Source: Oscillospiraceae bacterium
GTDB lineage: Bacteria; Bacillota; Clostridia; Oscillospirales; Oscillospiraceae
DNA length: 10,562 bases
Direction: 5' to 3'
Assembly (NCBI GenBank): GCA_017646545.1
Contig: JAGCMI010000119.1
Coordinates: forward strand, 1 to 10,562
Shown here piece by piece: positions 1,990-10,021 of this stretch. The translations under genes and the position numbers were made by a program. Below the pieces are notes generated by a model. The model was not told the origin of the DNA, did not search any database, and worked only from the letters and a program-made list of their open reading frames with translations. Position 1 is the stretch's first letter; every line of letters begins with the position of its first letter.

Positions 1990-2038
1990 GAAATTTCAAT
2001 TTATCAAGAAGAAGGCTTGCGCGATAAACTGCAATTTA
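1990..2038. repeat. Palindromic repeat element 1, minimal form
   Basis: This copy is the two terminal inverted repeats with only about a dozen bases between them. The right end is GCGATAAACTGCAATTTA (2021-2038), a perfect match to the consensus. The left end, aAATTTCAATTTATCAAG (about 1991-2008), matches its complement with a few changes. The heptad arms and the ACACCGGTGT centre of the full copies are absent. The last three bases (2036-2038) are also the stop codon of the adjacent pseudouridine synthase gene. Confidence 0.6.
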
Positions 2039-2953: not shown

Positions 2954-3102
2954 CAAAATCCAGTTTATCGCTTGATGAATTAGGAATTAGAGATTAGAAA
3001 TTAGGAATTTGAATAAATAAACACCGGTGTATTTTCCGGGCAATTCCTAACTCCTCATTCCTCATTCCTAATTAGGCGATCGGTGCGATAAACTCCAATT
3101 TA
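2954..3102. repeat. Palindromic repeat element 2, full length
   Basis: This is a complete 149-bp copy between lspA and the pseudouridine synthase gene. The left terminus contains AGTTTATCGC (2962-2971) and the right terminus is GCGATAAACTCCAATTTA (3085-3102). Inner arms are made of 7-bp units: on the plus strand TTAGGAA, TTAGAGA, TTAGAAA, TTAGGAA on the left, and TTCCTAA/CTCCTCA-type units on the right. The centre is the perfect palindrome ACACCGGTGT (3021-3030), within about 3 bases of the geometric middle. The copy is in opposite orientation to element 4, with which it shares nearly all its sequence. The right terminus includes the lspA stop codon; the left terminus abuts the ribosome site of the synthase gene. 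Confidence 0.85.
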
Positions 3103-3576
3103 CTTCTTCTCTTCTTTCCAGAATGCCTTGTTGAAAAAAGCCAGATGCAGAATCAGCAGAATACAGCCGCAGGTGATGAAGCAATCTGCCACATTGAATA
3201 CGGCAAAATTCATGAAATCCACTTCAATCATATCCACCACATAGCCGAAGCGGATGCGGTCGATCATATTGCCCACACCGCCACCGTAGATGGCAGCGAT
3301 GAGCCAGCGCTCGAAGGTGGTAAAGGGCTGTCTGCTTTTGAAATATTCATAGAAAATGGCCACGGTCAGCAAGAGGAAAATAATGGCAAAGAGCCATTGC
3401 GCGCCTTCAAAGGCGGAAAAGGCAGCGCCGGTGTTGCGGACATAGGTCAGGTGGAACAGACCCGGGATTGCATCCACATGACCGTAAAGGGGGATGTTCT
3501 GCAGCACCAGAAATTTTGTCCACTGATCCAGAGCCACAATGCCTGCGGCAAATAAACTCATTAACAGAAATTGCAT
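3100..3576 (-). CDS. lspA: Lipoprotein signal peptidase II
   Basis: This 158-residue integral membrane aspartyl protease cleaves the signal peptide from prolipoproteins after diacylglyceryl modification. It has four hydrophobic segments: about residues 2-17, 60-77, 90-100 extending into the GGGVGN region, and 126-148. Conserved elements are DQWTK (17-21), VRNTGAAFS (46-54), GNMIDRIRFGYVVD (102-115) and FNVAD (127-131). Asp106, Asp115 and Asp131 are the conserved acidic residues from which the catalytic pair is drawn. Length is normal for the family. The start has GGAG 8-9 bases upstream, and a good promoter lies at 3610-3638. The TAA stop falls inside the terminus of repeat element 2. It is the first gene of the minus-strand run. 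Confidence 0.97.
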   Translation of the reverse strand: MQFLLMSLFAAGIVALDQWTKFLVLQNIPLYGHVDAIPGLFHLTYVRNTGAAFSAFEGAQWLFAIIFLLLTVAIFYEYFKSRQPFTTFERWLIAAIYGGGVGNMIDRIRFGYVVDMIEVDFMNFAVFNVADCFITCGCILLILHLAFFNKAFWKEEKK

Positions 3577-3609: not shown

Positions 3610-3638
3610 ATTTTACCATGATAGCAGAACAAAGTCAA
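3610..3638 (-). promoter_or_regulatory. sigma-A promoter of lspA
   Basis: On the minus strand, -35 TTGACT (3638-3633) and -10 TAAAAT (3615-3610) are separated by 17 bases, and TGG just before the -10 gives an extended -10. The start is near 3603, giving a leader of about 27 bases before the lspA ATG. The first four bases of the -35 come from the inner end of half-repeat element 3, whose plus-strand edge is TCAAATTCC. Confidence 0.8.
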
Positions 3639-3693
3639 ATTCCTAATTCCTAATCTCTAATTTCTAATTCACCAAGCGACAAACTAAAATTTG
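3635..3693. repeat. Palindromic repeat element 3, one half only
   Basis: This is the right half of the repeat in the same orientation as element 4. The inner edge TCAAA is followed by four 7-bp units (TTCCTAA, TTCCTAA, TCTCTAA, TTTCTAA), then TTCACCAA and the terminal sequence GCGACAAACTAAAATTTG (3676-3693). No left half or ACACCGGTGT centre is present; the sequence before 3635 is lspA promoter. The half-copy sits exactly between the two divergent -35 hexamers. Confidence 0.8.
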
Positions 3694-3700
3694 AAATTCA

Positions 3701-5623: not shown

Positions 5624-5640
5624 TATACAACCAAAGAAGG

Positions 5641-5692
5641 AAGAGTTGAGGGTGAAGATATCTCCACTCTTTACTCCTCAATCTACACTCTG
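5641..5692. repeat. Second type of heptad-armed palindrome
   Basis: In the 81-base gap between queH and the methyltransferase gene, the perfect palindrome AGATATCT (5656-5663) is the centre of an imperfect inverted repeat reaching from about 5643 to 5676. Most positions pair; there are two mismatches and two G-T pairs. The right side continues as 7-base units CACTCTT, TACTCCT, CAATCTA, CACTCTG. The plan resembles the other repeats in this window, but unit and centre differ and the 18-bp termini are absent. It could form an RNA hairpin in the polycistronic message. There is no T-tract, so it is not a standard terminator. Confidence 0.6.
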
Positions 5693-5704
5693 AATGGAGG
5701 AACT

Positions 5705-7794: not shown

Positions 7795-7934
7795 TAACGC
7801 TCAGTTTGTCGGGCTGATCGCCTAATTAGGAATGAGGAATGAGGAGTTAGGAATTGCCAAGAACACACCGGTGTTTGTTTGTTCAAATTCCTAATCTCTA
7901 ATTCCTAATTCTCCAAGCGATAAACTTCAATTTC
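7795..7934. repeat. Palindromic repeat element 4, full length
   Basis: This 140-bp copy lies between the lipid kinase gene and thiN. The left terminus keeps TAA......AGTTTGTCG (7795-7811), and the right terminus is GCGATAAACTTCAATTTC (7917-7934). The left arm carries heptads TTAGGAA, TGAGGAA, TGAGGAG, TTAGGAA; the right arm TTCCTAA, TCTCTAA, TTCCTAA. The central palindrome ACACCGGTGT is at 7865-7874. Compared with the reverse complement of element 2 it is near identical through GATCGCC and the left arm, and lacks one 7-bp unit in the right arm. It begins 5 bases after the kinase stop codon and ends 3 bases before the thiN ribosome site. Confidence 0.85.
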
Positions 7935-9978: not shown

Positions 9979-10021
9979 TAATCTCTAATTTCTAATTCAG
10001 CAGGCTATAAACTGCAATTTA
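9979..10021. repeat. Palindromic repeat element 5, right-end fragment
   Basis: This 43-base fragment of the right arm and terminus has heptads TCTCTAA and TTTCTAA, then TTCAGCAG, then GCTATAAACTGCAATTTA (10004-10021), one mismatch from the terminal consensus. The rest of the element is missing. It lies 12 bases after the regulator's stop codon and upstream of the rimP promoter. Confidence 0.7.

Follow-up and report, generated by a model that had tools for sequence, protein, structure and literature searches.

A widespread inverted-repeat shell with exchangeable palindromic interiors in Oscillospiraceae, and the heptad palindrome as its probable passenger

What kind of sequence is 149 bp long, codes for nothing, reads as a palindrome in units of seven bases and recurs between the genes of one bacterium, and what could have carried it there? 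The question is raised by a window of 10,562 nucleotides, by which we mean the whole stretch of DNA analysed, from an uncultured gut bacterium of the Oscillospiraceae (assembly GCA_017646545.1, contig JAGCMI010000119.1). It is one contig (C135) of a host genome (G000) that comprises 1,065,638 bases in 169 contigs and is 62% complete. An earlier note on this stretch had described two near-identical copies of a single palindromic element, strictly intergenic and MITE-like, together with three partial copies, and had left room for a structural DNA or RNA role. Throughout, the outer inverted-repeat pair is called the shell, the sequence that it encloses the interior, and the two together a composite; the genes of the window, among them lspA, rluD, dgk and thiN, carry the names that we take, by eye, to fit their translations.

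The elements of the window and the reach of their termini

The composite between rluD and lspA, both of them minus-strand genes, fills positions 2954..3102 (plus strand; element 2) and consists of a shell around a heptad palindrome of GAATTAG type. It begins with the left shell terminus AAAATCCAGTTTATCG (2955..2970, plus), one mismatch away from the consensus AAATTNNAGTTTATCG, continues through a left arm of AATTAGG, AATTAGA and GATTAG units (2978..3009, plus), a central 10-bp palindrome ACACCGGTGT (3021..3030) and a right arm of TAACTCC, TCATTCC and TAATT units (3042..3073, plus) that is 81% complementary to the left one, and closes with the right shell terminus (3086..3102, minus). A second composite (7796..7933, minus; element 4) lies in the opposite orientation between dgk and thiN, with one heptad fewer in one arm and the same ACACCGGTGT at its centre (7865..7874). 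The opposed orientation, the two intergenic gaps, the seven-base periodicity of the arms and the shared centre are thus as the earlier note had them. Its 'near-identical' was generous, direct comparison giving 85% identity over 7803-7926, and its inverted termini hold good for element 2, where they agree at 14 of 18 positions, and for the intact right end of element 4 (7918-7933), but not for the left end (7796-7811), which has decayed to four mismatches in 16.

The three partial copies do exist. One, between a HAD-like gene and rluD (1991..2038), is a bare shell that lacks heptads; its termini lie at 1991-2006, with two mismatches, and at 2022-2037, with none. The other two are half copies on the minus strand: the divergent gap lspA/mtaB (3635..3694) holds a heptad arm with one terminus (3677-3692), and part of an arm with one terminus (10005-10020) follows a GntR/MocR-like gene (9979..10020). 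The elements do lie between genes, if not as strictly as had been claimed, for their ends supply the TAA stop codons of rluD (2036-2038, from the bare shell) and of lspA (3100-3102, the last three bases of element 2). Elsewhere in the window, two adjacent HAD-like genes (282-1136 and 1141-1965) resemble tandem duplicates, with DNA segments 71-85% identical, and in the queH/rlmKL gap (5624-5704) we read by eye a palindrome, GAGTTGAGGGTGAAGA ... CTCCACTCTTTACTCCTCAATC, that resembles a degenerate heptad array with a different type of unit and has no shell termini.

On both strands element 2 is predicted to fold more stably than its shuffles, as RNA (z = -3.8 and -5.7, with none of 200 shuffles as good) and as DNA (z = -4.2 and -4.1), and element 4 does so more weakly (RNA z = -3.6 and -2.4, with 1 and 2 of 200 shuffles as good; DNA z = -3.6 and -2.9). 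A described Rfam RNA was rejected as the identity of the elements: at gathering scores, the only ones considered, a search of the window returned two tRNAs and left the elements unmatched.

Searched with element 2, the host genome returned 16 matches, in some cases both strands of a single copy. Nine near-full copies, element 2 included, are 81-100% identical and dispersed, with differing flanks. The 17-base terminus, allowing up to three mismatches, occurs 34 times in the host against 0 for the reversed pattern, and several of these termini stand alone. Its consensus may be written Y-AAATTNNAGTTTATCG, about 16-18 bp long, inverted and sometimes ending in TAA/TTA.

The idea that the element is private to the host was rejected, since a 16-base form of the motif, allowing one mismatch, is present in 111 of 136 genomes of the genus; 33 of the 136 hold at least 10 copies and the range is 0-184, with controls of 0-2 per strand, so that counts of one or two are near background. 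Shell-rich genomes include G090 (184), G159 (121) and G186 (94). In G159, our deep sample (1,930,249 bases in 119 stretches of a genome of ~2.1 Mb, 95% complete), 183 termini with up to two mismatches were found against 7 for the control, and 48 of these strong termini fall inside mechanical ORFs, some of which are probably spurious. Across 300 genomes sampled from the whole family, the host's genus included, most counts were near background, the exceptions being G441 (55) and G232 (18). The 55 matches of G441 lie in a single genome of another genus, which suggests transfer or independent spread.

A phage origin of the termini was sought among viral sequences without success. A first scan gave two hits, with ~500 bases of each examined; a stricter form of the terminus matched 116 viral stretches, with one match each among the 80 matches listed. 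One contig classed as viral (L305, IMGVR_UViG_3300029305_008700) carries at 1609-1785 a shell around heptads of AATTGAA type, with a bare heptad palindrome nearby.

Exchangeable interiors and the period of seven

The earlier note had treated all this as one element, and that view gives way: what recurs is a shell with exchangeable interiors, and the heptad palindrome is a separate class, found also standing alone, and a passenger of a shell widespread across the genus. Within the host genome itself, the same ends also enclose another hairpin, of CTCCCTT type, at L063, L066, L069 and L073 (the contigs of the first two, C102 and C168, look like one locus seen twice). Short shells without a palindrome occur in the window (1991-2037) and at L016 (G000:C159, ~3424-3474), where a single AGTTAGG stands between the halves; the latter is either a shell from which the heptad palindrome was deleted between its outermost heptads or a form that precedes the growth of the palindrome. 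The nearest named relatives belong for the most part to Oscillospiraceae or Clostridia; three are labelled Faecousia, and many come, by their titles, from the gut of animals. Within 66 named loci of relatives (842,507 bases), terminus pairs enclose CATTGCGAG, GTAGGGGCGG, CCTTCCCC and CTCCCT repeats, while the pair in L105 encloses heptads like GAATGCA.

In G159, adjacent strong termini within 460 bp of each other are convergent in 56 cases, point the same way in 20 and are divergent in 0, and 71 convergent pairs span 48-427 bp. Their interiors fall into at least five families of 27, 13, 11, 9 and 6 members, plus small ones, two of which overlap larger families. Members of these families also occur with no terminus on either side (9/43, 10/24, 4/28, 1/10 and 6/17 loci, some of them fragments or at the edge of a stretch) or with a terminus on one side only (5, 1, 13, 0 and 5, in order of family size). 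Because the interior families are seen outside shells as well, the enclosed palindromes look like independent repeat families; and because copies of any one composite have the same junctions between shell and interior, composites appear to have been amplified as units. In G159, too, a module of ~83 bp, GGGATGCCCCGATGGGCAATGCG ... CCTGCGGTAGTC, lies between same-direction termini (for example in L177, L184, L185, L195, L198 and L206) and gives several shells an outer layer in the manner of BIMEs.

The interior seen most often in the host is the heptad palindrome, with two inverted arms of about four to five seven-base units each. Three of the nine host copies lack exactly 7 bp from an arm, C143 and the copy at 7796 from one arm and C95 from the opposite one, in keeping with slippage of entire units; the remaining indels among the nine, of 2 and 1 bp, both lie outside the arms. 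Heptads are 0.77 identical within an arm and 0.83 from arm to arm, the latter being a best-of value, figures that do not discriminate how the arms arose. Unit sequences vary between palindromes (GAATTAG, GAATGCA, AGTTGAC, GAGATAC, GAGTGGA and AATTGAA), and three of the types occur inside shells: GAATTAG in the host, GAATGCA in G159 and AATTGAA in the viral contig L305. A common ART motif among the units was noticed, on which we make no claim.

The period itself is strict. Arrays with periods of 5-13 were scanned at one threshold and called palindromic where an inverted partner lay within 200 nt. Period 7 gave 38 arrays in the named relatives, 21 of them palindromic, and 60 in G159, 50 of them palindromic and many of them copies of one composite; at the eight remaining periods, taken together, the arrays numbered 9 and 34, of which 0 were palindromic in either set. 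A stricter scan at period 14 found six arrays (four palindromic) in the named relatives and two (one) in G159, which are probably doubles of seven. With a looser threshold for the partner (14 of 20), distinct palindromic arrays number 38 over the named relatives, G159 and the window. In more distant loci from outside the genus (204,037 bases) period 7 gave no array and period 12 a single palindromic one, and in viral contigs (906,508 bases) there were six period-7 arrays, all six palindromic and all in two contigs, of which L305 is one.

Empty sites and candidate mobilisers

If a non-autonomous mobile element is at work, its sites should be empty in most relatives, and the comparison of orthologous gaps bears this out. 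Between lspA and rluD, the place of element 2, the genes abut or overlap in 17 of 18 relatives, the exception (L111) holding an unrelated repeat; three further loci, L081, L094 and L117, in which both genes lie on the other strand, stand outside this count, with gaps of ~43, 6 and 9 bp. The gap between rluD and the HAD-like gene is at most 52 bp in 14 of 17 relatives, while the other three hold other repeats, in L100 a heptad palindrome of a different unit. Between dgk and thiN, leaving aside gaps longer than 420 bp and rearranged loci, the gap is at most 36 bp in 6 of 14 relatives and holds other sequences in the other 8, several of CCTCCC type; the composite of the window is in 0 of the 14, and L133 has a shell with another interior. 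The two outcomes that the earlier note had said would argue against a mobile family, a lack of further copies and gaps conserved without empty sites, did not occur. The case for mobility lies in dispersal and in sites empty between species, and the family appears to have inserted at the sites of the window after the split from the relatives compared. In loci L078-L143 the repeats found in each of the orthologous gaps mtaB/queH, queH/rlmKL, rlmKL/dgk and dgk/thiN vary from species to species (CATTGCGAG, GTAGGGGCG, CCTTCCCC, CTCCCTC and heptad types) and alternate with gaps of 10-20 bp.

We consider it probable that a non-autonomous shell of MITE or REPIN kind captured the heptad palindrome, spread with it as a unit and was mobilised in trans. 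The outer shell, with its inverted termini of ~16-18 bp, would be the unit that spreads, presumably moved by an apparatus that recognises the termini whatever lies between them. Palindromic intergenic repeats would have been inserted at its centre or have grown there, and each composite would then have been amplified as a unit. The heptad number changes by whole units, probably through replication slippage, and insertion would be tolerated between genes, where in two cases in the window the terminal TAA supplies a stop codon.

The MITE-like reading of the earlier note stands in so far as this is a short, non-coding, dispersed family with terminal inverted repeats and with sites empty in most relatives. 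Two hallmarks that should accompany it, a target duplication of fixed length and a parent transposase gene bearing those ends, did not turn up in the incomplete genomes and the families searched. No clear target-site duplication was found at 70 elements of G159 over lengths of 2-9 and offsets of -6 to +4, the best excess of flanking direct repeats being 12 observed against 7.2 expected from shuffled pairings. In the 1.93 of ~2.1 Mb of G159 that was searched, no autonomous copy or terminus-framed transposase gene was recognised among termini with up to three mismatches, spaced 600-4500 bp apart, not already paired, and with ORFs over more than half of the span. Three candidates emerged, with 3, 1 and 1 ORFs, and the single ORF of ~508 aa in one of them is, as far as we can judge by eye, presumably a 4-alpha-glucanotransferase. 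From the other direction, none of 69 transposase loci (30 Y1 matches and 39 others of DDE type) is framed by a convergent pair of termini; the Y1 locus L254 shows a single close match to the terminus, and L247 shows two matches with three mismatches, one of them inside the gene. The family works like a MITE or a REPIN, although the MITE hallmarks looked for were not found and a place among the REPINs is tentative.

In anatomy the nearest system is that of the REPINs, which are tied to Y1/RAYT proteins (Bertels and Rainey 2011, PMC3116915). On a REPIN- or BIME-like account the terminus would be a REP-type sequence, two of them would pair into the hairpin of the shell as a REP doublet, and a Y1 (RAYT) protein would move the shell in the form of single-stranded DNA; we hold this unlikely, though it would furnish the preferred explanation with its mobiliser and does not exclude it. 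Like REPINs and BIMEs as PMC3116915 describes them, the family consists of extragenic inverted doublets with variable spacers, is non-autonomous and of high copy number, is arranged in mosaics, in G159 with extra flanking modules, and is predicted to form hairpins in single-stranded DNA or mRNA. The lack of target duplications agrees with such a mechanism, as does the distribution of Y1 (PF01797), which has matches in 76 of 136 genus genomes, in the host (three partial matches over cut-off), and in 9 of 12 shell-rich genomes against 4 of 12 motif-free ones. Yet G159, G090 and G186, with 121, 184 and 94 termini, have no Y1 match, although nine other shell-rich genomes do, the 30 Y1 loci lack framing termini, and most variants of the terminus do not, by eye, make a clear hairpin by themselves. 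The family differs from REPINs, moreover, in that one terminus carries unrelated palindromic families and in the seven-base periodicity of the host's interior. A tag of the GTAG or CGTC type that marks REP sequences (PMC3733652) is absent from the consensus AAATTNNAGTTTATCG; the flanking modules of G159 contain GGTAGTC. A Y1 protein is a live candidate for the mobiliser and, as assemblies are incomplete and the families searched limited in number, an enzyme that escaped view is possible.

The shell might instead be a classical MITE of a DDE insertion sequence whose parent has been lost, left unassembled, or carried on a visiting plasmid or phage, an account that we regard as doubtful. Its size, lack of coding capacity, terminal inverted repeats, copy number and occasional TAA/TTA ends would suit, as would the related composite on the viral-classed contig L305. 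Five DDE-type families (PF01609, PF00872, PF00665, PF13358 and PF12762) were searched in 24 genomes, 12 shell-rich and 12 motif-free, and some shell-rich genomes do carry genes over cut-off: PF01609 in 4 of 12 (G186, G029, G075 and G070), PF00665 in 2 (G160 and G063), PF13358 in 1 (G185), and PF00872 and PF12762 in 1 each (both in G075, the latter as a fragment). Against this, the motif-free genomes have PF01609 in 6 of 12, PF00665 in 6, PF13358 in 0, PF00872 in 2 and PF12762 in 1, while the four richest genomes, G090, G081, G059 and G159 (assemblies 78%, 62%, 95% and 95% complete; that of G186 is 92%), have nothing over cut-off in any of the five, G159 offering one sub-threshold rve hit (E 8.7e-4). 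All six transposase families searched, Y1 and the five of DDE type, yield nothing over cut-off in G159 and G090. The absence of target duplication tells against a DDE parent too, and the interiors, far from being one transposon with internal parts deleted, are palindromes with no relation to each other.

Among MITEs that contain a tandem repeat the closest parallel is BrickBuilt of Porphyromonas gingivalis (PMC4596501), described there with direct repeats of 23 nt, 19 copies, ends akin to those of IS5-family elements and duplications at three of four tested copies. It shares with the present family an intergenic, non-autonomous, inverted-repeat-bounded form with a tandem repeat inside, and in two strains another MITE lies inside one copy. 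Here, by contrast, the units are of 7 nt and set in inverted arms, several interiors are interchangeable, no duplication was found at the 70 elements of G159, and the searches of G159 and of the 69 transposase loci turned up no matching transposon.

A more adventurous account, to which we give little credence, does without a transposase: a terminus of 16-18 bp would spread any palindrome that it encloses, possibly coupled to replication or repair, while a second process writes palindromes by sevens, with unit sequences that differ from one palindrome to the next. If true, the cargo would be nested hairpins, not genes.

That the elements are not mobile at all, being a conserved functional RNA or DNA structure (for 3'-end processing or attenuation, or as a site for the nucleoid or for repair) and changing where they stand through slippage and copying templated by hairpins, seems very improbable: hairpins stronger than shuffles, stop codons supplied by element ends and a paucity of elements in divergent gaps would suit it, but most orthologous gaps are empty or contain repeats of another kind, whole units of 150 bp recur at different sites, and no Rfam family matches at gathering score. 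The paucity is plain in G159, where the 48 of 71 elements that could be placed lie in codirectional (36), convergent (9) and divergent (3) gaps, against 128,681, 42,533 and 64,235 bp of such gap available (by mechanical ORFs of at least 100 or 120 aa, covering 86% of the sample), and where four ORFs stop at element ends; its cause could be some function at the ends of transcripts and not tolerance alone.

Heptads in other bacteria and what the family offers

The shell that we favour as a mobile unit is distinct from its passenger, and the passenger has counterparts of its own. The heptads described here are tandem, intergenic 7-nt units whose arrays change in length unit by unit, as befits heptameric repeats. 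Those of Xanthomonas and Nostoc (Rehm et al. 2015, PMC4692102) are likewise intergenic, in Xanthomonas mostly with four units to an array, and some pairs are inverted on the two strands; polymerase-footprint slippage is cited there as a proposed cause. The units followed in that study are G-rich (GGGAATC, GGGGA(C/T)T), whereas here several AT-richer unit types occur in close relatives, most arrays are palindromic and some sit in shells. The TAACTGA heptamers of Beggiatoaceae (MacGregor 2015, PMC4679880; also PMC4853749), intergenic too and patchy across phyla, consist of one unit in direct orientation, mostly close to start codons, the main genome having 169 direct sets and a single indirect repeat; the abstract of PMC4679880 mentions no shell. 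A known family was sought in print by literal sequence and rejected: only GTCATTGCGAGG was matched, in papers none of which, to judge by title, deals with such repeats. In the open-access literature, subscription journals being scarcely covered, no account was found of shells with exchangeable palindromic interiors or of heptad palindromes in the host's group.

Heptameric repeats and miniature hairpin elements are joined here in one group for which sequence data are abundant. That group poses a puzzle, for genomes with 121 and 184 termini yield nothing over cut-off in six transposase families. Copy number differs between species of the genus over a range of 0 to 184, which allows a comparative search for the mobilising factor, and the strict period of seven bases lets ideas on polymerase slippage be tested directly.
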